A DNA stretch of 64,000 nucleotides, taken from Polytrichum commune. Lineage: Eukaryota > Streptophyta > Polytrichopsida > Polytrichales > Polytrichaceae. This document shows positions 6,451-60,781 of the stretch, piece by piece. How positions within the stretch are numbered: the first letter of the stretch is position 1; every line of letters starts with the position of its first letter. The notes under the pieces are model-generated. The model was not told the DNA's origin, did not search any database, and saw nothing but the letters and a program-made list of their open reading frames with translations. The translations under genes were made by a program, and so were the position numbers. The stretch lies in contig OX485805.1 in assembly GCA_950295325.1 (NCBI GenBank), forward strand, positions 39,917,501-39,981,500, written 5' to 3'.

Positions 6451-7482
6451 CGGACTTTGCCCAAGAGCACTCGACAATGTTACACAAAAAGCAACCACAC
6501 CTAGCTGCAAAAGTAATTGCAAACACTTGAAGGGGGAGTGGTGGACCAACAAAGTTCCCACCACACCGAGGTGCCATCAAGATGGAATTATACCAAGTTT
6601 TGATTTTGATTGTCTAAGTCTAAAGTTAAAATAGGCACAAACATGGCAATTGATACACTCCCTTCTCCAATATCATGTTTGTTTATGGGTTTTATGAGTA
6701 TATGCATGTTGGTTGCACAAATGCATAACGAGGAATGTCATTTGACTCTTTTTTTTTGTTTAATCCGGTTTTACACCTTTAGGACAATAGGATGTAATTT
6801 TTCCTAAAATTTGGAGTTAGGTTGTAGGGAAGGAGGTATAATGGTTGATTTGTCAGCCACAACATATGTTATGTATGTTACATTTGATGCATAGTTGGCA
6901 CTACCCCACCAAACAACGTTGCTTCGTTGGTTTTTTTCCACATGTATTTCATGTTTTGTTCTAATAAAAACATTACTATTTTCATTACAATTTGGCATCA
7001 CAAAACCCAAGAAAAACACTATGGTCCAAAATGTGTATGTATATAGTTATATATCAAATACTTATTTTATTTTTTAATAAAAAAAACCCACTCAAAATTA
7101 ATGCAATTAGAATGGGGCCTCTGCACGAGACAAAGTGCCTCTATATGCTAAAATCCTCACATTTTAAGATAGTTGAAGTATTGAACCCAACATCTTGAGA
7201 AGATTTACTGGTTGTAGCAAAAAGTTATCATGTATGCATCAAGTGCATGTAATCCTCTTTACCTAGAACGAGACATGTCACTTAGTAAAGCTCAAATGGG
7301 CATAAATGGAACATGGGCCAGTCATGTCATCTTATAATGTAATAATTCATAAAGATCGCTAGGTGGATACTAGTCGAGACTAAACTTTTACATTGTGCAA
7401 AAATCTAACTTATCGTAAGTCAACCGCTTCCAATAATGACAATAGGTAAGTCATTGCTATGGGTTTGGATACCAAGTGGTAT
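6450..7482. other. Intergenic, no gene seen
   Basis: AT-rich sequence with short frames only and no repeat ends or RNA genes that I can recognise. The last nine bases (7474-7482, AAGTGGTAT) look like the left target duplication of the element that follows. Confidence 0.4.
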
Positions 7483-7565
7483 GGGGAGTGCTATCATGTG
7501 AGTTGTGAGCGGTGAGCAGGGAGCGGGGAGCAATGAGTGACAACATATGAGCAATGAATGAATAA
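7483..7565 (+). repeat. E2 left TIR with TGAGC-type tandem motif
   Basis: Starts GGGGAGTGCTATC and continues with GTGAGCGGTGAGCAGGGAGC and related units up to the ATGAGCAATG block. The same layout is found at both ends of E1. Confidence 0.7.
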
Positions 7566-8399
7566 ATTCCAACAATAATACACACACTATTATCCGATAA
7601 CCGTTTATTCTTTTTTCTTCCCCCCCCCCCCCCTCATAGAATGCTTATGTGTTTGCACATGAATGAGTGTTATTGAAGGTGGTCATTTTGATAATTTTGA
7701 ATACTTGGTCCATTTGTCACACCTTTTAATGATGGATGTAGTATGATTTCAAGCACATGTGTTTTGAGGATTGTGGCCCAATTACTAACATATACACACC
7801 ATTTTCCACACATAAATTTGTGAATATTCAATCAAGTGTCTTTGAACTACTTAGCCTCGAAGTTCAATTATACATGGCGGTAGCTAGGCAAATAATAAGT
7901 CTTTGATATAAAGGGTGCAATGCATGATGATGAAACAACGCACATTAACATGTTGAATAATTGTGCTTCATTCAATAGCATTAAGAACATTAAAAAATCA
8001 AAACCAATCAACATCTATCATAATCATTTTCCTCATGTGCCTCACCGTCTATACATGAATTGCGAACAAACCGTCGGGACCTACAAGGAATGGGTGTTAG
8101 ATTGTTGCCACAACCTTAGCTACACGCTCTACATATATACGGAGCTTCACCGTACTAATAGGTGATGTGGTTTTTTTCTATCATAATTCAACAAGCACCA
8201 AATCCATCAATTAGATGTTGGAACCAATATGAGATAGAAATCCTTAATTGCATCAAGCCGAATCGGTTATGAAATAAACATCAAAACTTACTTATTCATG
8301 TGTGATTGTTTCGCCACCTTCCAAACATGTGCATGCTTATTCGAAAGGGATGTAGTCTAAGGCACATTTCCACCCGTCACAAGAGGATTAGCTTTGCAT

Positions 8400-9280
8400 A
8401 AAGGTGCTATTATTGCCTTTAATATATTAGAGTCTCCCTCCAATGCCACCAAGTGTCACCCACTTCATTTAGAAGCATGGATAGAAGCCCTTGGAAACCA
8501 TAATGAGAACCATCAATTAGCAAATTGGACTAAATTCAAACACATGTACTCAAATAGTCATAAATGCAAAGCGATGGTTGTTGTTACATGTGGATGCATA
8601 TGCATCAAGAACTACAACACTAGGTTTAGTCAGTGCCTTGATGAAGAGTTCTATGAATTTAGAGTCTTTCTCCCGTGCACCTCTCCAAAGAACACCTTTG
8701 TTAAGGAGTTGAGTATTAGTTGTGGTCAGATTAAAAAATGTCGGTGGGTCCAATATCCACATCCGACATGGAACTCTTGTGTAAAACAATAGGTGTTGTA
8801 GATTTCATCTTGTGTTTGAAGACCAAAATGCAGAGTCTACATAAGGCATACAAATACATTAGAATAAATGAACAATTGTTCAAATGACAATAACAATGGA
8901 AATTATAATAACCAAGTCACAAAATGAGAAATATGAAGTCCATACCGTGAGAGTCTTATCAACACCTAAACATAAAGACATTTCCTTGATGCCCTGCCAA
9001 TCCTTTGTTATTACAAATTCATAAATCATTGCATACGTCATAACATCATGCTTAACTCTAGACATAAAGACAAACATGCACACATCCTCATGAAGGTATG
9101 CATCAACAAATTCAAAAAGGTCCTCAATGTGAGAGGATGAACACAAATTCCATTTGGAAAAAAGGTGATGAGACAAATGGAATGGGGAGCCCTTCCAACA
9201 AGTTTGCAATAATAAGGTCAAATGTACAACCACCAAAGGATGCATGCAATGTATATTGAAACACATTTCAACAAACAACC
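8400..9280 (-). pseudogene. Beta-class DNA amino-methyltransferase-like relic in E2
   Basis: Read on the minus strand, 9230-8940 encodes a stretch with FVDAYLHEDVCMFVF, the strand-and-turn usually following motif IV in N4/N6 amino-methyltransferases (E1 counterpart CKSILSDDGVLIVF). 8790-8550 contains LWRGAREKDSKFIELFIKAL and then VVVLDAYAST, the motif I position. After about 110 unrelated bases, 8470-8400 contains HLVALEGDSNILKAIIAPL, matching HLLAFEGDNDMFEHILKPL of E1. The order (motif IV region, then motif I) is that of the beta class. The DPPY signature is not visible at the expected place (about 9200). Frames are interrupted and an intron is likely between 8945 and 8800, so this is a pseudogene. 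The N-terminal part of the E1 protein is not seen here. Confidence 0.65.
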
Positions 9281-9483
9281 ACTGGTATTGATTGTGACTC
9301 CCATTGACCTGACAAAGTGAACTACTTCATTCCTTGCCGTAACACCTAGGTGAGTCATTAACACATGGAGGAGTCTTTGAATTCGGCAAAGCTTGGTGTG
9401 ACACATACCACATCGGTGCTAGAAACTGATTGCTTTGATTCCTAGTGGCACATTGGAAGATTGGCACCCAACTCTACTAAAAG

Positions 9484-10480
9484 ATGTCGGGCAATGCAAG
9501 CCATACATGTATTTTATGCAATGCAAAAGTTGGTACTAGAAAACATGGCACTCCTATTCCAACTTACAAAAGATTGAAGAAAGAATTTCGTTCCACCAAC
9601 AATGTGGAGTACAAGTTTTGGTTTTGCCCTGACAAACTCAAGTATTGTGTAAGTGGCAACAAAAAGAAAGATGTGTTGGATTGGCCTATATTGCCCAACA
9701 CTTGGCCAATGAAGATGGGCACTAGTCTCGCTCTCAAGGAGACATTGGCGCTTGAGGACACGTTTTTTCAACTGCAATAGGGGAAGGCATTTTCACCTCA
9801 TCATAGGATGTCATCAATTGTGGCCCTACCCATCACTTGGTCACATTTCCACCAAGCACAAAACCTAGACACCCACCTAACTTCCAAGATTAGGAAAACA
9901 ATGTGTTGCACTCTAACAGCGTTGACAATGGATCATAAAAACAAATGGGAGAGTGCTTGACTCACGGACAAATATTATTTAATAAGGGTCATTGTCATTC
10001 CATATCCATGATTTGGAGTGTCAATTAACATTGTCTCCAAAAAGGACATTGCATATTGTGTCACAATTGGGGAAGTCCTTCATTGCACATGCCCTACTTG
10101 CTCGGGGGGTTCACTGGCGAAAATCGTAGAACAACGTGCGATAAAAAATAGGGTCCAATATATTCATTGTAGATAAATTTTGTAAAAAATGTACATGTAA
10201 AATAGGGGATTTTAAAATAGTGAAACATGTTTACATGTAAAATACCATCACATATAATATTTTTAGGCTTTTTACATGTAAAATACCATCACCTTATAAT
10301 CTTTTCTGCAAGGTAAATAACCCCCCCCCAATAAATAGGTCCCAAACGCACGTGTATGCAAAATATAAGAGGGAGTGAACCCCCCGAGCCTAGCTGAATT
10401 AATGAAAACCTCATTTCATGTTTGGGAAAGAAATGATAATGGGTATAATGGGTATAATGGGTATATTTGAGTAAGTGACA
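9484..10480 (+). pseudogene. SWIM-type zinc-finger protein relic in E2
   Basis: An open frame at 9484-9780 (98 codons) begins with a CxxC (CILC) and is followed, with frame breaks, by a region at 9930-10100 reading WESA, LTDKYYLI, VSKKDIAYCVTIGEV and CTCP. A CxCP followed by GKKxxWV after the inserted MITE (about 10410-10440) resembles the SWIM zinc finger found in Mutator transposases and plant FAR1/FHY3-like and other nucleic-acid-binding proteins. Several stops occur, and a TGGGTATAA triplication lies where the W-V-C-K-H part should be. It is transcribed away from the methyltransferase relic, with heads about 200 bp apart. It could be the remains of the element's transposase, but no catalytic DDE motif was found. 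Confidence 0.45.
10104..10385. mobile_element. G-run TIR MITE nested in E2
   Basis: A 282-bp element with ends GGGGGGTTCACT on both strands (10104 and 10385), flanked by CCTACTTG and CCTAGCTG, a likely decayed 8-bp duplication. Its two subterminal regions match, in reverse orientation, those of the 628-bp element at 15763-16390, including GCGAAAATCGTAGAA and CTCCCTCTTATAT. It interrupts the SWIM finger of the E2 relic right after CxCP, so it is younger than E2. Confidence 0.7.
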
Positions 10481-10669
10481 TGTAATGGTGTTGATTTTTA
10501 TAATAAACATTAGTAATGGTCATATTGTACTTTGAAGTATCCATGATAATAGGACCCTTTCACTCGAGTTCTTTGGAAATGTTAGTACTTTAAACTTGAA
10601 AAAATACAATAAAATGAGAACCAAATTTAGATTGTGTACCTTATGACCATGGACATGTACTAAAATTGG

Positions 10670-10761
10670 ATGCATCGTTCATGTGTTACTGCTCACCACT
10701 CATGTGTCATCCTTCACCGTTCATTGCTCACCATTCATCGCTTATGGCTTAGCTTCCTTCT
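10670..10761 (-). repeat. E2 right TIR with TGAGC-type tandem motif
   Basis: On the + strand this reads as repeated GCTCACC/GTTCATTGCTCACC units. In reverse complement it matches the E1 left TIR and its subterminal sequence. It is more diverged than the left end. Confidence 0.65.
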
Positions 10762-10770
10762 ATATGGTAT

Positions 10771-12445
10771 GGGTGTTGTATGCTATCACAAGACCACAAA
10801 ACAATCCAAAGCATTTAAAGAAGAAACATTAAGGTTTTGTGATATTCAAGGATATTCTTAAATTAAAGGTGTATTATAGAGGTTGATAATCTATACATAA
10901 TTTGGTGTTCAATAGGTATACCAATATATTGTCAATGGAAAGTCCTAGACTACATCCATATAATCAAAACTACATTTGTGTAACAACGATATCATTGATC
11001 TTCACCACTTTAAGTATTAGCCTCTTTGTAGGAAGTGATGAGAGCCCGGGTGGGCCTTGGGGTGTGGTTCGAATTAGGGAAGGATGGCAATTTTGTAGGC
11101 GATGTTTGTTTAGCATAAGCATAGCGATAAATCCATGCATTTGATTGTTATTCAACGATTGGAAAGTATTGGAAAGTTTTGTATGTTCCATCAACAAAGT
11201 ACTAGTTCGATATGCCTTTCGTAGTTCTTAAATTAGTGTGGGCCACACTAATTGACCCAAATTAAAATATCATATTTTGGAACATGCATTGGTCACTTTT
11301 GCTTCAGACAAAAAGGCCATTTAAGGAGTTTTTATAAGTGCTTATGTACTTATGCAAGGGCATTGGAAAGGAGAAGGTTGAGTTTATAGTAATATTCTTG
11401 GAATTTAGATCTGAGTGAGTGATTTTTTTACCAAATTTATGCTACAAATACAGAATAATGATTATGCAATATTTTATCATTGTATGCTTATATATATATA
11501 TATTTATATATCATGCAATATTTATCATTGTATGCTTACATATATATCAATAAAAGCAAAGACATGTTGAAGAAGTTGTGTGTGAGAAATAACTATAAGT
11601 TTACAACACAAAGTATATGTTAGATGAAGATATCACTTTCTAGTTTTTATACTACCGTTAGAGCATAGGTATGATTCGAGCATGTTCTTGGTTTTAATAT
11701 ATACCATGTGGGTTTAAACGATAAGCAATAACTTTCGTATCTAGGTAAATTACCCTAGCAACAAAGTGATGTTGCGGAGTGTAATGGCTCAAATAATGAC
11801 TCAGTATACAAGTATTTTTATCATATACACTAATTATGGTAGGCTATGTGGCATACATATAGCGTGACTTCCAATGAGTAGTTATGTAGTGTGGTTTAAA
11901 AAATACATTGTCGTGCAATATTGCATATAGCGTGACTTCCAATGAGTAGTTATGTAGTGCGGTCCAAAAAATACATTGTTGTGCAATATTGCAATGTGCA
12001 ACCCTAGTTAAAACTTGAATCTTCAACTACTCATCATGGTATGACTATTTTACTTCTAGTTGTGGCAAGATATCCTCCATGTATCAAATGAAAGTTGGTA
12101 AGAATGCGAATTCAAAGAGTCTACTTTCGATTGGCTAAGAGTTAAAGGAGATAATGGTGTGTAAGGAAGGAATTTGACAAGCTTTACAAGATGGATTATT
12201 TGTTCATAAAAAATAGATTTGAAGGAAACATCATCATTTGAAACAATTGGAGTTATTTTTTAAGGTAGGTTTTGGTGGGGAACACGTGAGCACCACCTTC
12301 ATGCCCTCCCTTCAAAGAGAGAGAGAAAAAAACCTATAAAATGAACCTCTAATGTTTAACATTGTGAATTGGTAAAATAGAGTGAACTGACATTATTATC
12401 CCCTATGGTTTTGTGCGAAAATAAGCTCAATATTCCAACCCACAA
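10771..12445. repeat. Intergenic with two small tandem duplications
   Basis: No gene seen. A 68-bp unit beginning CATATAGCGTGACTTCC is present twice at 11856-11991 with few differences. A roughly 53-bp block with TATCATTGTATGCTTA is duplicated at about 11465-11550, separated by a TA run. The rest is featureless AT-rich DNA. Confidence 0.6.
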
Positions 12446-21839: not shown

Positions 21840-24279
21840 AGCTGTGGCATCTTGGCCTGCCATGGCCATGGCCATCCGCCATAGCCAAACCCCATACGCA
21901 GTAGCCACCTGCGACGCTCACGTCCGTCTCGAGGCACGGGACCTCGCTTTTCTACGCACGGGCGCAGCCGCGGGAGCATCAGGGAAAATTGGATTTTATT
22001 TATTTTTCTTTATTTTTCCGCCTCTCAAATCTATTATCTCTCGGATTTTTCTTCTGCCATTTTGTCGTAGCAAGCGGATAGTTAGTCACTGGCAGGGGCA
22101 GGCAGAGGTGATTGCGAAGTTTGGCATTTCGATTTTGTGGCGGCTCTGGTGGCGCGGACGGAGGAGGAGCTCGTGGGAATGTCGGTTGGTTGAGGTGCGT
22201 GCTTCTGCGTTGGATTTGACGGTGTTCTCGTCAGCTGAATTGGTTTTCGGTAGCCGAGGGGTGGCATGAAAAGAGTGTGTGTATCTTTCGGTTTCGTCTA
22301 TCACAGTGGAAGATTTCGTCCTCGTTTTGGTCTGCCAGGCGACAGGTCCACTGATCTCTTCGAGGTTTCCGCCGCGGGTGCGGTATAGCATTGTCGCCTG
22401 CTGGTTTGGTTAATTTCGTCACGAGTTCTTGTGCATTGGCGTCGCGGAGTATCGTCTTGTTTCTGCGTTGATGACCTAATCTGCTAGTGATCGTGTGTAG
22501 GAACGGAATAGTAGTCCGCAGGTCTAATATTGGTCGAGTGCCAGTCACGTGAAGCACGAGCAGTCTGGCTCTCTTTTAGCATCTCTGAAGTAAGTAGCTC
22601 GTATTGCCTTGTCAGGTGAATGCATGGCAAGTCTGCGAGAGCTACAGTGTGTTGGTTCTCAAGTTTGTTGCAAATCGTTCTTGGAATTTCCGTAGCAAAC
22701 CAGTGAGTTCCATTCACTAGAGCTGCTGATTTGAGGGGATGTTTTGGACGTCTCCGGAGTTTCTTGGAGAGATCCACGATAGGTTCTCGATATTACGTTA
22801 CGCCGGGGTTTCCGTGATAAATGCTCTACTTCGACGTGAGCTATAATAGCGCATGTTGTGGTCTGACGGTCAGCATGGTATGTGTTGCTATGCCGGTTGT
22901 TAAGGAAGTGGTCTGAGAGCTCTAGATATGGCTTTTTCTTTACTACGGTTTCCCACAATTGTCTTGGTTTTGGAGCTTGTTTATCTTATGGTTGTTTGCT
23001 CGCGGTGCAGACTTAGAGGCCTTACTTGGAGTGCCTCTGGAGGCTGCATAAACCTTGTATACTCCGCTTCCGGCTCCTGCCTTTCAAGGTAAGGCAGTGT
23101 CTGTATCTTGAATGCACTATGTCCTCTATCCAAACGAAGTTAGATATTCTATTATTAGATGATTCTTGGCATAAATAATTTTAAGAGGGAGAGGAAAATA
23201 GTTTGCGCTGTAAGGCTATCCTCGGTTTGGCTGACCAGAAATGTTGTCGTATGAATTACGGGTAGCTTGAACGTCGTCTGGAATATTCACTCCGGGAATT
23301 TATCGAAGCAAGCAAGTCCTTCAGTAAGAGAAACTCCTTAAGTTACATTGCCGATACGATGCAGCCAACGGAAATATTATCCTCTTCTTTTCTCGAATCA
23401 AATCAAGATAAGAGAAATAGATGTATTTCAAAGTCCAGAAACTAAAATCAACAACTCATCCAAGGGTTATTGATTTGAAAGAAGAGAAGTAGTGACGGAC
23501 TTTGCAGGCAGTTGTTATTTGAATTTGACGAATTTATCATCATCCATACAGGAAAGTGCCAATTTTTAAAATTGCAAAATATTTGTCAAGATTGTGGTCG
23601 GTAAAGCTTAGTTGTTAACAGGCTCCTTCCACCACTCGCCTCAGAATTCTACTTTATGAAGTAGGCGTGTCTACAAATGTGCAGGCAGATGTTTTGGAAA
23701 TATTCCGTTACGATTGTCCTGCTTGGAGGTGTGCGTTACAGCCAAACAAATATTAAAAAGAAGAATCGCTATTTAACTATCGAATGTTGCTTATGGCCTG
23801 TCTTATGGTTGAAAATTACTCGCACACTAATGGTTGATGCATTTAAAAAGCTGCACCCGAAGGCTTATTTGAGAGGGACGTACTCGAAATTGCTATTTGC
23901 ATGGGCTAAGCAGTAGTATGTAGCTATTTGATTATCATTCTCGGATTTCATTGTATAGTACCTCCTGGTGTACTTGTTGGTCTTTGTTTAGGGGCGAATG
24001 GTTGTCAAGAGTATATTGCATGCACATGGACCACTCCTTCCTTTTCTAAAAAGTGCTGGTATCATATTAGCTCCATCCTGTAACCTGGAACTCCTTGTAT
24101 AGCTTGGCTTGTTGCATATCTACTCAAGTGTGAATCGATGTAGTGGTCTGACTGGAGATGACAATATTGTCTGATGTAGAGTATTGATTGCAGGAGGCGG
24201 ATGCAGATGCTCTGCGTGGCTAAACGAGTATAGAACTCCTGGTCTGCAGAATACGTAGGAGGAAGCAAATAGAAAAGAG
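21840..24279 (+). other. GC-rich leader region with 5'UTR intron
   Basis: GC content rises sharply at about 21.8 kb and stays high to 23.1 kb, typical of a promoter and 5' leader. A strong donor (TTTCAAG then GTAAGG, intron from 23089) and an acceptor (TTGATTGCAG, ending 24193) predict an intron of about 1.1 kb in the 5'UTR, with the second exon starting at 24194 and the start codon at 24280. The transcription start is not visible. Many accidental frames cross this region on both strands. None looks like a protein. Confidence 0.55.
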
Positions 24280-25617
24280 ATGGAGGGCCCCACAACTCCT
24301 GGAGCATTGTCCTCAAGCGCTTCATTTCGAGAGTCTGATGTGGAGTTCCTGCAAGATAAAGCTAGGGAATGGCTAGAGGCAGTGTTGGAGGAGAAACTTG
24401 ACCCAGAAACCAGCTTACAGGAGTTGTTGGCCGATGGAACTATTCTGTACAGAGTCTCACAGATTATCAAAGAAGAGACTGGACACATAGATGGTTCTCC
24501 TGCTCATGTATTGGCATCTCCAGAAATTCCCAGGAAAAACAGCCTAAAGTATCAACCCTACCCATATGTAGAGGCGTTTCTGAAGGTTTGTAAGGAGGTG
24601 GGGTTGTTGGATGTGGACTTATTCAACCCTTCAGATGCAGTTGACCAGAAGGACATTAGGCATGTGTGTGTCTGCTTGCGAAGGTTGTCAAAGAAAGCAC
24701 GAACACTTAATATTCAAGTGCCTGACTTTGATAACGTGAAGCACACATTAACACCATCTTCACACAAACATCCCATGTCCACTGAAGCTGTGCACCATAT
24801 CCGGGACTCCCTTCAGCAGTCATCTAACAAGCCGACTTCAAGGTTCAGTACAAATGGTGATCTGAATAAAGACACCTCATCAAGTATTGCTGATTTGAGG
24901 AAGGACGAGCCTGATGTCAACTTGGAACCTGGTAGTGATAGTGTTACATTCGAAAAGGTTCACCAGGAACTGGATGAGGCTGCTGAGAAGCGACAACCTA
25001 TTGTTACAGAAGCAAACTTTACTGTGAATGTGGCAGAGCCAGGTGTGGAGGCTATTCCTTCTGTGTCTGAATCTGCAGGGAAGAAGAATGAGGACTTCAC
25101 TGCGGACAATGTGTCTGAACAGAACTCTCATCTTGCAACTGAGCAGCTTGCAAAGGCTAGAAATGCTGAGTCAGTCAGCAAGTCGGAAAGTGAGACCAAC
25201 CTTGTGAGAAAGGCAGGGGAGATGAGAAGTGAGGAAAAAGTGTCAAGCAAAACAACGACATTCTCATCACCACTTGAAGAGAAGACACAGACGAAGCTAA
25301 CAGGAGAGGGTAAGAAAGGGCAGTTCATTACAAAGCCAGAGGCACCAGAGAGGTCAGACGAGGCGAAACCTCGCAAGGGGGGGTTCTCATGGTTACCAAT
25401 GGTGGCAGGAGTAGTTGTTTTTGTTGGTGCCATTGTGGCTATGGTGGTGGTCAGGGAGAGGAGACCTTCCGCAGAGGTGTATGAGGTGAAACCAGGGGAC
25501 ACACTATCTGAGATCTCAAGAAGGTCTGGGAAGTCATCCTGGCAAGAAATAGTGCAAAATAACCCGAAGATTCAAAATCCAAATCTCATCTTTCCGAGTG
25601 AGCGACTCAATCTGTAG
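24280..25617 (+). CDS. Membrane protein with N-terminal CH-like domain and C-terminal LysM
   Basis: An uninterrupted 445-codon frame. Residues about 18-140 are predicted helical and resemble a calponin-homology/CAMSAP-type fold (AREWLEAVLEEKL, LLADGTILYRVSQII, NPSDAVDQKDIRHVCVCLRR). Residues 140-365 are low-complexity, Ser/Lys/Glu-rich and probably disordered. About 370-391 (WLPMVAGVVVFVGAIVAMVV) is a single membrane span followed by RERR. Residues 399-445 are one LysM (VKPGDTLSEISRRSG, then NPNLIFPSERLNL), complete to the stop. There is no N-terminal signal peptide, so it is likely tail-anchored or single-pass with the CH part in the cytosol; the side of the LysM cannot be told. CH domains bind actin or microtubules and LysM binds N-acetylglucosamine polymers, so a cytoskeleton-to-membrane or glycan role is possible but is inference. 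The start is the first ATG after the predicted leader intron. Confidence 0.8.
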   Translation: MEGPTTPGALSSSASFRESDVEFLQDKAREWLEAVLEEKLDPETSLQELLADGTILYRVSQIIKEETGHIDGSPAHVLASPEIPRKNSLKYQPYPYVEAFLKVCKEVGLLDVDLFNPSDAVDQKDIRHVCVCLRRLSKKARTLNIQVPDFDNVKHTLTPSSHKHPMSTEAVHHIRDSLQQSSNKPTSRFSTNGDLNKDTSSSIADLRKDEPDVNLEPGSDSVTFEKVHQELDEAAEKRQPIVTEANFTVNVAEPGVEAIPSVSESAGKKNEDFTADNVSEQNSHLATEQLAKARNAESVSKSESETNLVRKAGEMRSEEKVSSKTTTFSSPLEEKTQTKLTGEGKKGQFITKPEAPERSDEAKPRKGGFSWLPMVAGVVVFVGAIVAMVVVRERRPSAEVYEVKPGDTLSEISRRSGKSSWQEIVQNNPKIQNPNLIFPSERLNL

Positions 25618-54556: not shown

Positions 54557-54880
54557 TTGGCAATCATCTTTTGTTATATTGATTTGAACCAAATCACCAA
54601 GAATTGGGCGGACTTTATTAAGTTACATCTCAAACACCCGCTCAAAGATGAATTAACACTATTGAGAGGAGAATGTACATTCATGATGGAACTTGAAAGG
54701 GGAGAGCGGGTCATTGTTAAAGTTGAAAAAAAACTTTGAGTTGGTCACAAAGGAGCGAAATCTTCGACTCCACTTCAACACATTAGTATGCAAAAGCTAC
54801 TACAGAGGCCAACAACTTGAGTTCTTGACCTTGACAAAACTAGAAGTATTGAAGGATTATGCATTTCTTACTCTAGTCAC
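54557..54880 (+). pseudogene. LINE ORF1 5' fragment
   Basis: Two overlapping frames (54557-54739 and 54693-54899) make one protein-like stretch with a frameshift in the A run near 54728: WADFIKLHLKHPLKDELTLL, then FELVTKERNLRLHFNTLV and LEVLKDYAFLTLVT. No named domain is recognised. It is assigned to a LINE because it joins, across E1, to the sequence upstream of the RNase H domain. The continuation after position 54880 belongs to E1. Confidence 0.45.
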
Positions 54881-54970
54881 GAGGGAAACTATCTTATGAG
54901 CGATGAGCAGTGAGCGGTGAGCGGTGAGCAGTATCACATGAGCAATGAGCAGTAACATATGAGCAATGAT
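54881..54970 (+). repeat. E1 left TIR with TGAGC-type array
   Basis: CTATCTTATGAGCGATGAGC, then repeated RTGAGCGGTGAGC units to about 54970. The subterminal 150 bp match E2 in reverse orientation (GATACACAACCAAAATTTTG, GTGAAAGGGCCCTATTTCCA). Confidence 0.8.
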
Positions 54971-55094
54971 TCCAAATTTAGTAAAGACACACGGGTTTAG
55001 GATACACAACCAAAATTTTGACAAATTAATTGCATATTTTCAATTGTAAATTGCTAATATTTTAAATGAAGCACAAGTGAAAGGGCCCTATTTC

Positions 55095-55855
55095 CATGGA
55101 TCATTTAAAACACTTTCAATTCATTGCTGATTTTTATTATAATAATCCAAACCAATACATGTCATTTATTGACATCCTTATACATGTAGTTACAACCAAT
55201 ACTTGCACAACTACTCACATTCCACAACACCAGCAAATTTAAGTAGGTGCATAACCTCATTATACGTACATGTAGGTGCCATAATTGTGAGCCACTCAAA
55301 CTGCTCACGGGTTGAATTAAGGCCCAGAATCTACAAATGAAAGGAAATTAGATATTAGAAATAGTCAATATGTAGGTAACTACTAGGTTTTGAGACATCC
55401 GCCTGTGGATGCGAGTTGTGTAAGAGACTGGTATTAGGTTTGTATCAACCCGGGTTCGAATCCGGTTGGTTACATTGACTGGTGCTGTCCCAAATTGAGC
55501 TAGTGATAAAGCAGGAATAATCTATAGGCGGATACCAAGAAGACGTTACTACGCGGATGTGCGTAGAATCTTCTCAATTATTTTTTATTTTTAGAAACTT
55601 GTTATTATTTATCCATGTCAATCAATCAAACCGCTCACGGTTAGGTCGTAGTCTAAATAGAAATGAAGTTATTGAATCATTTGAAATACTTCCAGCCCAT
55701 TGCTGATTTTTATTATAAAAATCCAAACCAAAACATGTCATATTTTGACATTCAAATATATGGTACTTAATAGACCATTTGTAATACTACTCACACTCTA
55801 CAATACCAGCAAGTTCAAGTAGTCGCATGACCTCGTATAAGGTCATTGCCTAGCT
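55095..55855 (+). repeat. Direct duplication within E1
   Basis: The block with TTCATTGCTGATTTTTATTA, AATCCAAACCAA, ACATGTCAT, ACTACTCACA and ACCAGCAA at 55120-55260 recurs at 55690-55815. A second shared segment (CTCAAACTGCTCACGG at about 55297, ATCAAACCGCTCACGG at about 55625) lies between. The copies flank the SINE-like sequence. Confidence 0.6.
55390..55590 (+). mobile_element. tRNA-derived SINE-like insertion in E1
   Basis: A perfect B box, GGTTCGAATCC (55453-55463), within CGGGTTCGAATCCGG is preceded by a tRNA-like head (GCGAGTTGTGTAAGAGACTG). The body ends TAGAATCTTCTCAATT before a T-rich stretch. There is no complete cloverleaf, so it is not a tRNA gene. Exact ends and target duplication are not resolved. 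Confidence 0.5.
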
Positions 55856-55878
55856 AGAGGCTTCGCAAAGTTGGGCAA

Positions 55879-55910
55879 GTAGACCCTGTGCGTTAACGCA
55901 CAGGGTCTAC
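55879..55910. repeat. Perfect 32-bp palindrome, copy 1
   Basis: Each half is GTAGACCCTGTGCGTT, with no spacer, centred on GTTAAC. Flanking sequence (AAGTTGGGCAAG upstream; GCTGGCAACTTTC downstream) can extend the hairpin imperfectly. It lies 230 bp upstream of the palindrome array. Confidence 0.85.
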
Positions 55911-56140
55911 GCTGGCAACTTTCTAGCGGCTATACGGGGCCACGAAGAGCCACGCTAAATATGGCTGCAGGGACAAGTAGTATAAATTGCCACACCCCCA
56001 AAGCATTCAGTCTTTTTTCTCTCATCTGTCAGACCTGAGCTCGTTGCTGCAAGCTCTCTCATCTACAGGTGCAGTATAAGGTTTGTTTGCACTTTCGTGA
56101 TGACTGGGTAATTGCGCGTAATCTGGCGTAAATTGCGGAC

Positions 56141-56458
56141 AGTTTGGGTCATTCGACCCAAACTGTGAGCATGGTTAGGGTCGCTCGACCCAAACTGTGA
56201 GCGTGGTTTGGGTCGTTCGACCCAAACTGTCTGCCTAGTTTGGGTCGAACGACCCAAACTGTGAGCGTGGTTTGGGTCGTTCGACCCAAACTGTCTGCCT
56301 AGTTTGGGTCAAACGACACAAACTGGCTGTAGGCGGTTTGGATCGAGCGACCCAAATCACGCGCAGAAAGTTTAGGTCGTTCGATCCAAACTGGCTATAG
56401 GCGGTTTGGGTCGCTCGATCAAAACCGCGTGGACAGTTTGGGTCGTTCGACCCAAACC
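56141..56458. repeat. Array of ten palindromes of the GTTTGGGTCGNNCGACCCAAAC type
   Basis: Ten copies of a roughly 22-bp palindrome with core GGGTCGNNCGACCC start near 56141, 56172, 56204, 56237, 56269, 56301, 56334, 56369, 56403 and 56435 (period 31-35 bp, about three helical turns). Spacers are short (CTGTGAGCGT, CTGTCTGCCT, CTGGCTGTAGGC) and partly repeated. Variation is mostly single substitutions, often preserving dyad symmetry. The array lies about 280 bp upstream of the E1 gene start. Each unit holds two CpG sites. It could be a binding or modification array for an element-encoded protein; function unknown. Confidence 0.85.
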
Positions 56459-56494
56459 TCGCGCCCAACTTTACTAGACCTGTAGTTGGACACA

Positions 56495-56524
56495 CAGACC
56501 CTGTGCGTTAACGCACATGGTCTG
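56495..56524. repeat. 30-bp palindrome, copy 2
   Basis: Same core as 55879-55910 (GACCCTGTGCGTTAACGCAC) with one mismatch that breaks the symmetry (CATGG for CAGGG). It lies 37 bp after the palindrome array. The two copies bracket the array. Confidence 0.8.
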
Positions 56525-56734
56525 CCTTTGTAGTTTTGGGGTGAGCGGCCACCCTAATCGTACAGTATTTAAATGTGCAAATGGTAGTGTCTAGAATAAT
56601 TTTTGTTATTCTTCCCTGTGTTCGTGGTATTCTGTTGTTATTGTTGTTGCTATTGCTGTTGTTTTTGTAATATTATTGCTAATGTGTTGCTACTGGTTTT
56701 GAAATATTTATGAAACTTATTTCATTTGCTTTAG

Positions 56735-59700
56735 GACCAATCAATGGATTTGGAGAGAACGACTCCTATTTCTACTGATGATGATTCCACAATGCATTCA
56801 ATTCAAGATCGTCCATCTCAACAAGTTCATCACCATCAGGACATGTCGTCAAATCTTCATAATAAGAAAAAAAAGAAAATAAATGAATCCCTCGATGATT
56901 TTGACTCGGATGAAGATAATGATGGTAATAAGAAAACTTATCAAGAGAAAGTGTGGGAGCTTATGAACAAACGAAAGGTCAATTCCACTTCCACAATTTT
57001 GTCAATCCGTGCTGGACCTAATGCTCGCTTGCGTGTACCCTTATGTCGCATGGTTCCTATGCCGATTGTGCGTCCTGCTTTGAAGGATGACATTACTAAA
57101 TTGGAGGCTGATTTTTTCAATGGTTATCGTGATGGTGACCGTGTGTTTTATATATCGGCCACCGATTCTAAGGGAAACTTTCAATTCGTGGATGATGAGG
57201 TTTGCGAATCTTGGAGCCCAAATTGGGCTCAAGCCAATGCCCTGTTTGAATCTCAATTGGATACAAATTTGTCATTGACGTTATACAAGAACAAGATGTT
57301 TTTTATATGGGATGGAAATCACAAATTTTTTTTTGGAAAAATTATATTGACCGCGTATATACCGAAGATTATGAACGTCATGTCTTTGTGGATTCTATCA
57401 TTTTGACGCCCGAGCCTGACGACATTCCAAGTTTGTTGACTGCTATGTATGACATCAACAAGTAATGTTCTTACCTATTTTTTTACACTTATTTCTAGTT
57501 TATATTTTGTTTTCCAAATTATATCATCATGAATCTAATCAATTTAATGTTTTTTTCAGGTCAACCGAAAATTCTCATGTATCCACCAATTTGGTGCATA
57601 CTTTATAACGGATGCAAAGTATTGGCACCATATCTTTGACTTCTTTCAGAAAGCAACTGGATCCAAAGAGTTATAAACGATGTGAGGAGAAGTCTGTCGA
57701 AACTTGATATTCTTTGACACAACCAATTTTTTTGGATTACATGTACAGTGCAAGTTTTTCTACCATTGCTAATATGTGCATTATGTTTATTCATCTTCAT
57801 TTTACATTACATCTATATGTACTTATAAATATTGACTTTTGTTTGATTTTTCAGCAAGAACTTGCTGAGACTAACGATATTGCTCTCAACCAGGACAATG
57901 AAACTCATCTTCTTGAACGGACATCAGACGGAGTTTCAAAAGCAATGTCCGCAGCTGTCAACAAAAAACGTGCAATGTTATCTTCTAGTTTTACGAAACA
58001 ACTAGCGATTGCCGACATCAACCTTACCTCTGCTTTCCTTGAAGAAGTTAAGCACCATTGGGGTTCATTTTCGGTGCCTGAAATGCTACAAGAGAAACTT
58101 CATCGTGTTGCTGTCAGTAATGTGGATGCAGAAGTCAAAGTTGGATGGCTCAAGCTGTGGAATGGCAATAGATTTGACAAAGATGTATTGCATTTTCCGA
58201 AATCGCCCCTCTCTGATTCTGCACTTGATGATTGGTTATCAAAGTGTACATATTGGGCACAGTTGGAAAAAAATGCTATCGAAGAACTTCAAAGTATTCT
58301 TTCATCTCCTCTTCAGTTGCCTGCAGATGTGCCTACTCTCTCCGAGTATATCCAAATCTGGAAGTTTGCGACTTTCAATTCAATATTCTATCGTAAATTC
58401 CAAAGCGGAAAAGTTAAAAAACATAACGGTTGGGATGAGCAACCTAATATTGATCTTGCTATGAAACGTGTATTATACAGGTACAACCTAATCTTATTAT
58501 TTTTTTGATTTTTTTGATTCCATTTGTCAAATTGTCATGAAATATTTGACTTACAATATTTTTGTGTGTAGGTATTTTCGATATGTTTTGATTCCACATA
58601 AATGCGTTATAGGGGAACCTAATTTTTTCCAAATTGGCGTGAGACTGGTGCAGGAGATTCATACATGTTCACTACTGAGATTTGTTTGGATTGGTCGCTC
58701 CCACACTATGAGGATTGTGGTTGGTATCTTGATTTTCCTAAGGATGCATGTCCGTCAAGTGAGAAGACAATCCGTCAGATAAATGATGCTAAAAATGTGG
58801 ATCCGCATGATACTGCAATTTTGCAAGCACAAATTGTGCAGCTTAAACTTAGAGAGCCAAAACCAAAAGAGACAAAACATCGTAAGAGGAAACATGTCCC
58901 TGAAACCAAAATACAAGGTCAATCGGAAATTTCACAACATGAAGAATTGCTTGTTATTTCCAATGATTTGGATAAGAATCCACTTGGAGGCGAAAGTTCA
59001 AAGTCTGGGTGCGATGTATTGGAATTTCATTACTCCAGCACCTATGACGCTATTCATCGTGTGCCAACAAATATTTTGAGAAAAGAGTTATTCATACTGA
59101 AGAACTTTCTCACGCTCTCGTTTGCTCGATCTACTGCTGTCAAGAACAAGTCTGAAGGGATGGATATAGGCCCTCCTGAGTGGATCTAATGGCGGGAATT
59201 TATTGAAAACGTAAGTATTATTGTTTTGGTATTTTCTCTAATGTTCTTACTTTCATTTGGGTTTTATTTTGTGTCTTATATTGTGATATATTGTGGTATT
59301 TCAGTTCAATGACAATCGCGAATTTCATGTCATGGGAAGTCCGACTCCCTTTGCCGTTGACTTGGTTTTTCTCCAATTTCCCGACGGTCTTGACTTCAAC
59401 CTCTCCAATAGACCTGCTGAAATTCTTCTTTGGAATAAATATGACAAGAACTTGATGGTTGCAAGAATGTCCTTGTGCAAGTCCATCTTGTCTGATGATG
59501 GCGTCCTCATAGTATTTTGTGCTATCGATATGCAAACCAAGAAGGTTTTGAATTCAACTTTACACAACGGCAACATGAAAGTTCTTAGGACTTTTATTTG
59601 CCTCAATTCGTACATGGTGTTCAAGGATCCGGAGTCTCCAACCTACACCGTAAGTATAACACATCACAATTATTTCTATTTAATTATTTTGGTGTTATTT

Positions 59701-60560
59701 GCATTGTATATAGTTTTAACACAATTTACATTTTTTTGTAGACTCCAGCATTTATGGCTTATGTCTTGGTAAAGAATTTTACTACCACAAAATCCACGAG
59801 ACAACCAAACTCCACTTTTTTTGGCACTGGATTGAAAAGAAAAAACTTGCTTTTCAATTTTGTGGATGAAAAAAACATGCTTCTTAAAAAATCAGGAAGA
59901 CCTTGGAGGGGGCCATATCAAAAATCGCCGCGTTTTTTTCAAGATCTTATTGAATTGTTTACACCATCGAATGGACGCGTTGTTGATTTGACATGTTCCA
60001 CTGGAGCTTCTATCCTAGCAACACGCGCATGTGGTAGACATCTTCTTGCATTTGAGGGTGATAATGACATGTTTGAGCACATATTGAAACCGCTTTTGGA
60101 AAACGTTTTGAAAGAGGGGTCATCTAAGGAGAATATACAAGATCTCACAAAAGAAGATGATGACCTCTCGGATGAGGAGATGCTTGAATTTGAGTGAGAG
60201 TAAGTTTTAATACAATAAATTTTTATTCAATTCATTCGTTTCATTCAATTCATTGGTTCATTTTTATTTCTTCATATTATTTACATGTTTCATCGATTTG
60301 ATTTCAGGAATACGATTGGAAAGAGGACATGTCTCCCGTTTTGGGCACATAGACAATTCCTACGAAGTCCAAGCCGTAGCCCGCATCTCCCATCATATGC
60401 CGAGAATGTTGCAATTGCAATGTTGAATCTCGAAGATTCGGATCCAAATGAAGAATCTTGCTATAGTTCCAAAATCAATTCGCAATGCAAAGGTGCTCGA
60501 ATATATATAGATGATGAGGCAAAAGATAGTTTCATGTCTAGTGCTACTACTGATGAATAA
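56735..60560 (+). pseudogene. E1 gene: ParB-like N-terminus plus beta-class amino-methyltransferase-like C-terminus (disrupted)
   Basis: Predicted exons: 56735-57461 (ATG at 56744), 57560 to about 57700, 57855-58480, 58572-59210, 59305-59649, 59742-60193 and 60308-60560. All joins have GT-AG ends and agreeing phases, except the end of exon 2, which is unclear. The N-terminus is acidic, then VPLCRMVPMPIVRP, LEADFFNGYRDGDRVFYIS and FIWDGNH, which resembles the ParB/sulfiredoxin fold. A charged linker follows (about 58800-59000). The C-terminal part has AVDLVFLQFPDG where beta-class enzymes carry DPPY, ILSDDGVLIVFC, WRGPYQKSPRFF, VVDLTCSTGASIL (motif I position) and GRHLLAFEGD. Damage: frameshifts at a T9 run (about 57328-57336) and a T6 run (about 58621-58626), and stops at 57606-57608 and 59187-59189. 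It would act on DNA if the family is active. It looks like a broken copy. Confidence 0.7.
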
Positions 60561-60689
60561 ATTTTTGGACTTCATGTTGTTTATCCTTCTCAACCCTCTT
60601 ATTACTAAACCCTAAAATCATCATTTTTAAGGCCACAATTCCACGGTTATAGGATATTGGTGGCCCTATTACCAAAATTTTCATCTTCC

Positions 60690-60771
60690 TCACTGCTCAT
60701 AAGTTACCGCTCATCGCTCACCGCTCATTGCTCACCGCTCATTGCTCACCGCTCATAAGATAGCACTCCCC
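60690..60771 (-). repeat. E1 right TIR with TGAGC-type array
   Basis: On the + strand: CACTGCTCATAAG, repeated CGCTCATTGCTCAC units, then CATAAGATAGCACTCCCCC. It is the inverted counterpart of the left end. Confidence 0.8.
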
Positions 60772-60781
60772 CTCTAGTCAC

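Follow-up and report, generated by a model that had tools for sequence, protein, structure and literature searches.

It has been proposed that methyltransferase-like accessories borne by transposons mark the elements' own DNA. Does the protein encoded at the present locus write such marks, or does it rather recognize DNA? The question is raised by E1, a terminal inverted repeat (TIR) element in a 64,000-nucleotide stretch of the Polytrichum commune genome (hereafter the window; G000:C3:39917501-39981500; genome-wide counts are from the assembly of 408 Mb in 64 contigs). A sequence-only reading of the window had claimed that E1 belongs to a mobile family that spreads a modification-type enzyme. 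In our analysis the methyltransferase-like domain is kept by selection and the catalytic motif is missing from all copies seen, which would argue that selection keeps recognition and not methylation. We give about an even chance to the whole explanation, in which E1 is a deleted Mutator-type member and the accessory protein of its family a DNA-recognition or anti-silencing factor.

A two-gene transposon family and its deleted member

E1 (window 54881-60771) is bracketed by an identical 10-bp target-site duplication, CTCTAGTCAC. Its tips read GAGGGAAACTATCTTATGAGC on the left and, as reverse complement, GGGGAGTGCTATCTTATGAGC on the right, and its TIRs consist of TGAGC-type tandem units whose best arms are 54-67 nt long and 79-85% complementary. 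These ends and the duplication had been described beforehand and are confirmed. With two mismatches or fewer, the tip GGGGAGTGCTATCTTATGAGC occurs at 367 sites genome-wide (176 + 191), against 0 for the reversed control.

A genome search with E1 returned at least 29 places, E1 counted, that match it over at least 2.6 kb; E1 and 20 of the other 28 form the set of 21 copies used below. The right end is visible in 19 of the 20 other copies, each with a different flank, in agreement with the mobility claimed earlier, and the stretch fetched for the last one (L017) holds no right tip. All 20 align to E1 only from about window position 55846 rightward, and leftward of it they carry other element sequence. 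Left ends were obtained for three relatives, namely the elements of L010 (12,344 bp, target duplication AGTTGGCATG), L015 (11,727 bp, CTGCCTACAC) and L025 (11,674 bp, CTAAAAGGAC), and the 10-bp duplications are perfect in all four elements with both ends read, E1 included. The full-length plan comprises two divergent genes, a transposase gene on the minus strand at the left and an accessory gene at the right, which lies opposite in strand to the transposase in the L010, L015 and L025 elements. Because TIRs and gene occur together in these full-length elements, the possibility that they stand together nowhere else, or that the gene is a host family lacking TIRs at all other places, falls away. 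E1 belongs to a real two-gene mobile TIR transposon family with young copies.

E1 was rejected as a full element, since its full-length relatives measure 11.7-12.3 kb and E1 is internally deleted. By alignment it corresponds to positions 1-932 of the L010 element joined to 7390-12344, and therefore lacks about 6.46 kb, which in L010 holds the bulk of the transposase gene together with the accessory gene's first exon. The accessory frame of E1 is broken by two 1-base indels (frameshifts) and four in-frame stops; its donors are five GT and one GC, and its acceptors six AG. E1 is thus a dead, internally deleted family member without transposase. The seven-exon methyltransferase-like gene had been rightly placed inside the element, albeit in a broken frame, whereas the internal deletion, the transposase and the 5' exon of the full element had been overlooked.

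Mutator-like elements (MULEs) make target-site duplications of about 9-11 bp. The family has 10 bp in 4/4 elements and long TIRs (the arms of E1 given above, with TIR alignments for four elements), and on these two features it is most likely of Mutator type. Its transposase (1167 aa, two exons) is open in L015 and L025, between which dN/dS (nonsynonymous/synonymous divergence) is 0.011/0.066, and broken in L010. Read by eye, it contains C-x2-H (CLFH) and CxC...CxH patterns, which we take to be Mutator-like transposase motifs. With the exons of the L010 copy, Pfam yielded SWIM only, at E 0.076-0.15 and below cut-off, and none of its MULE models matched within E 10. In the transposase gene (L029 6832-7264), an intron end and exon start are directly duplicated over 118 bp (93% identity) on either side of an array of the P1 palindrome (see below), so that there are two acceptors. 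Outside the family, a hAT-type dimerisation domain (PF05699, E 1.1e-6) lies at L029 1247-2353 (-), about 2.3 kb left of the L010 element.

The accessory gene under selection

The accessory gene comprises seven exons (1076 aa) and a 94-aa 5' exon with an RPKRRRRK-type basic stretch, which is predicted to join exon 1 in phase. A pattern search located the 5' exon in 17 of the 21 stretches (not in L012, L016, L026 and E1); L027 has it out of frame, and in L010, L022 and L028 the fetched stretch begins within it. The seven exons are free of stops and indels in four of the 21 copies (L009, L015, L017 and L025). All 12 splice sites are canonical in L015 and L017, and L009 has one non-canonical acceptor (AA). 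Full-length copies with intact frames and 9-10-bp duplications had been suggested as a check, and L015 and L025, two fetched elements in which the frames of both genes are open, have 10 bp each. The L017 stretch covers the accessory side; its transposase side lies outside what was fetched, so L015 is the sole element read in which both genes are apparently intact.

Over 210 pairs, broken copies included, mean dN is 0.027 and mean dS 0.081 (ratio 0.33). When L015, L009 and L017 are each compared with L025, dN/dS is 0.139-0.154 at dS 0.19-0.20 (L015-L025: 0.14 at dS 0.197); for the 5' exon of L015 and L025 it is 0.027/0.074, the exon being too short to weigh. The accessory gene is under purifying selection across two subfamilies. 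This bears on the idea that it is a captured host or viral passenger, Pack-MULE style, without function for the element. Mutator-type elements do capture genes. Pack-MULEs are also named in PMC12477816. A decaying passenger is disfavoured by the dN/dS of 0.14-0.15 between open copies of two subfamilies, by its frame being open in elements whose transposase is open as well, and by introns and a 5' exon common to the copies; we consider it very improbable.

The selection is spread over a mosaic. We compared, segment by segment, a first subfamily (L009, L011, L012, L015, L017) with a second one (L021, L022, L025); seven of the 21 copies were unused overall. Between the subfamilies dS is 0.27-0.50 in codons 1-540, and 0.076, 0.205, 0.032, 0.042 and 0.020 in the five segments that follow, up to codon 1075. 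Codons 81-540 combine a dS of 0.29-0.50 with a dN/dS of only 0.06-0.13, i.e., strong constraint. Inside the first subfamily dS is 0-0.037 along the whole gene; between it and six older copies there is no step in codons 81-540 (dS about 0.05), and dS is 0.18 in codons 1-80 and 0.11 in codons 681-760. At the level of whole elements, L015 and L025 are 84-86% identical from late exon 1 to exon 2 and mostly 91-99% elsewhere; identity also falls in the repeat arrays (83-89%) and near intron 3 (86%). The greater divergence of the N-terminal half suggests a module exchange with a diverged relative. Alternatively, the remainder might have been homogenised, and the data fit either.

A methyltransferase-like part without motif IV

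Searches with Pfam, NCBIfam, PHROGs and viral contigs used a query of 1075 aa, one serine short near residue 302. In PHROGs, the C-terminal part matched phrog_67 (E 1.5e-7) and phrog_3008 (E 3.5e-4). A Pfam scan of the accessory protein at E up to 1 gave PF01555 and PF15458 only, the former at E 0.02 and 15.3 bits against a cut-off of 26.7. In phages, tblastn with the methyltransferase part found 33 records with E no higher than 1, the best at 0.003; the best 20 of these 33 are annotated as methylase or methyltransferase (15), helicase (3) and hypothetical (1), one being unannotated. All four plasmid records found by tblastn are annotated as DNA methyltransferase (E 0.04-0.5), and hhalign to two phage methylases gave probabilities of 85% and 91% (pairwise E 6e-6 and 1e-6) on the motif I side. 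NCBIfam had no match to the accessory protein, PDB sequences had none to the methyltransferase part at E up to 1, and a scan of viral contigs for relatives gave eight pattern matches, 0 of them confirmed. Judged from the matches obtained, the C-terminal part is related to DNA amino-methyltransferases of the N6_N4_Mtase profile. Of the two profile types named in the earlier reading, the methyltransferase one matched (phrog_67, and PF01555 below its cut-off) and ParB did not.

Motif I reads VVDLTCSTGAS in 18 of the 21 copies, and the acidic residue after it is kept. Motif IV, [DSN]PP[YFW], is found in 0/21 copies, and FLQF[PS][DN]G stands instead in its expected place (near residues 742-752). 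Of the beta-class motif order claimed earlier, what is borne out is that the hidden Markov model match begins directly beyond the expected position of motif IV and continues to motif I (the two best-covering matches start at residue 773, past residues 742-752). Because [DSN]PP[YFW] is replaced by LQF[PS] in 21/21 copies, the domain is probably without canonical catalysis, and the working modification enzyme of the earlier claim is not supported.

One might still suppose an active amino-methyltransferase with a non-canonical motif IV that marks its own DNA with N4-methylcytosine or N6-methyladenine. Such an enzyme would account for the methyltransferase profile match together with purifying selection, and for the retention of motif I and the following acidic residue; self-modification has moreover been proposed for the Sola1 ParB-methyltransferase protein of Ectocarpus (PMC12477816). 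Against this stands the replacement in all 21 copies. In N4CMT of bdelloid rotifers SPPY is required for activity, which a change to APPA abolishes (PMC8885841). In addition, the methyltransferase-like half is not visibly more constrained than the N-terminal half, on the few differences found there. We therefore regard an active enzyme as unlikely. Like N4CMT, the present protein would have a permuted N6_N4_Mtase-type domain in a eukaryote; N4CMT differs in that it has SPPY and is active, and in that its gene, fused to a chromodomain, belongs to the host and not to a transposon (PMC8885841).

Proposed recognition or anti-silencing and what weighs against it

A DNA-recognition or anti-silencing factor is favoured over an active methylase; among the points in its favour, the N-terminal half is strongly constrained and yet has diverged most between the subfamilies. 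The protein would enter the nucleus via the RPKRRRRK-type basic stretch of its 5' exon, its N-terminal half would bind DNA, and the methyltransferase-like domain, its canonical catalysis lost, may serve as a SAM (S-adenosylmethionine)- or DNA-binding module. The protein could thereby assist the element through recognition or anti-silencing, in the way of VANC for VANDAL. VANDAL elements are Mutator-type. Introns and upstream regions of VANDAL have accumulated tandem repeats of the motifs to which VANC proteins bind (PMC5735166; PMC10398659). As in Arabidopsis VANDAL, the family has an accessory gene beside the transposase and tandem arrays of short motifs in introns and noncoding parts, and its palindrome layout resembles that of the VANC targets (PMC5735166). 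Pfam found no VANC-type domain in the accessory protein at E up to 1. This domain is DUF1985.

A more far-reaching version is that a transposon lineage has converted a methyltransferase into a recognition factor that is sequence-specific and no longer catalytic, whose DNA-reading N-terminal half can be exchanged and which frees the lineage's own copies from host silencing; this would be an anti-silencing system without sequence relation to VANC, arrived at along a different path, and we find it rather doubtful. Maize MURB is a transposition helper, and the accessory protein might likewise be required for integration or for the working of the transposase and play no part in silencing. The divergent two-gene plan and the open accessory frame beside an open transposase would fit such a helper; Pfam names no helper family, and nothing here separates a helper from the favoured recognition or anti-silencing factor. 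We hold the chances of a helper to be low.

ParB-methyltransferase accessories of transposons have been reported from brown, red and green algae (PMC12477816). Like that of Sola1-1_Ec32 of Ectocarpus and those of red and green algae, the accessory protein of the E1 family measures about 1100 aa and combines a methyltransferase domain with a ParB-like one (the latter only suggested in E1), and it is encoded opposite in strand to the transposase of a TIR transposon (PMC12477816). Compared by description with Sola1-1_Ec32, the E1 family differs in its 10-bp duplications and in a transposase that looks Mutator-like and not Sola1; unlike the algal accessories it lacks the catalytic motif in every copy seen, and its ParB-like part is putative (PMC12477816). 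Among the open-licence matches listed, as far as titles and abstract openings tell, there is no report of a methyltransferase-like accessory gene in a Mutator-type element.

Several points weigh against the favoured recognition or anti-silencing factor. The ParB-like assignment is one motif, DGNHR, read by eye in 19 of the 21 copies, with DGNHK in E1 and DGNYK in L025, an open copy; neither Pfam nor PHROGs supports this part. Searches with it gave nothing below E 0.7 among PDB sequences and, by tblastn in phages, eight records within E 10, the best at 1 and not one labelled ParB; of two predicted structures neither was good enough for use, their predicted local distance difference test scores being 34.9 (ParB-like part) and 34.4. 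The L025 accessory gene has one changed donor (AT). Moreover, the copies still decay by C-to-T, so that any protection is incomplete or lost in dead copies. Among the 21 copies there are 633 singleton changes, with C-to-T or G-to-A accounting for 367 and the opposite direction for 64. In the 21-copy alignment C-to-T decay per site is about equal across contexts (CG 0.21, CHG 0.26, CHH 0.22) and about nine times the rate of A/T transitions (0.024), a pattern that dense cytosine methylation in all contexts would explain, other causes being possible.

The palindromes count partly for it and partly against it. In the L010 element, 20-nt palindromes with no more than one mispair number 21, where 30 first-order Markov shuffles of the element give an expected mean of 0.33 and a maximum of 2. 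Long palindromes of the full element sit outside the coding exons: P1 lies in the 5' region of the accessory gene and recurs between the two exons of the transposase, and P2 is found chiefly in the space that separates the genes. The 20-bp P1 (TTTGGGTCG-NN-CGACCCAAA) has 9,731 exact sites genome-wide (reversed control 0), and only 114 of these fall within the element portions of the 21 copies, which as fetched are mostly without the transposase-side arrays; P1 is therefore a genome-wide motif and no E1 signature. P1 as an element-specific target is weakened: a VANC motif is enriched in its element and rare elsewhere, and P1 is not. Unlike the VANC case, P1 is not confined to the family, and anti-silencing by the accessory protein is putative. 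Open and dead copies in one genome provide a direct test of recognition versus methylation.

The first 100 P1 places listed form clusters with many spacings (such as 32, 36, 57, 64 and 78 bp) that extend well outside the E1 family, e.g., at G000:C1:616089-626109, and the right flank of L015 (6738-8501), outside the element, has nine more exact sites. Nine P1 sites also accompany a run of long open frames at 4828-9497 of L034 (G000:C1:1181300-1191200). A gene there, taken by eye for a second ParB-methyltransferase gene, was rejected: no Pfam model matched it within E 1, PHROGs gave no value under E 0.12, and comparison with E1 by hhalign and blastp was no better than reversed or shuffled controls.

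Features of E1 and its borders, in window coordinates
Feature	Position	Strand	Remark
Left target-site duplication CTCTAGTCAC	54871-54880		letters repeated at 60772-60781
Left TIR	54881-54969		TGAGC-type tandem units; sequence, alignment
Left end kept from the full element	54881-55834		equals L010 element 1-932, 91.6% identity
Zone of the internal deletion joint	55835-55866		about 6.46 kb gone relative to L010
P2 palindrome AGACCCTGTGCGTTAACGCACAGGGTCT	55881-55908		several copies per element in fetched relatives
P1 palindrome array	56141-56460		type TTTGGGTCG-NN-CGACCCAAA, spacing about 32 bp
P2 palindrome no. 2	56496-56523		imperfect
Exon 1	56744-57461	+	frameshifted in E1; ParB-like motif region WDGNHKFF
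Exon 2	57560-57749	+	donor GC in E1
Exon 3	57855-58480	+	
Exon 4	58572-59210	+	
Exon 5	59305-59649	+	motif IV place, reading VDLVFLQFPDG
Exon 6	59742-60199	+	SAM-binding motif I VVDLTCSTGAS
Exon 7	60308-60559	+	C-terminal tail
Right TIR	60690-60771		
Right target-site duplication CTCTAGTCAC	60772-60781		

In the left end, a B-box-like GGTTCGAATCC was seen by eye in a stretch common to the full element (window 55400-55560, equal to L029 5140-5300). This stretch is possibly a short interspersed element derived from a tRNA; ARAGORN found no tRNA in it. Elsewhere in the window, a 452-aa open frame at 24259-25617 (+) has, by eye, an N-terminus of calponin-homology type, a single transmembrane stretch and a C-terminus resembling LysM.

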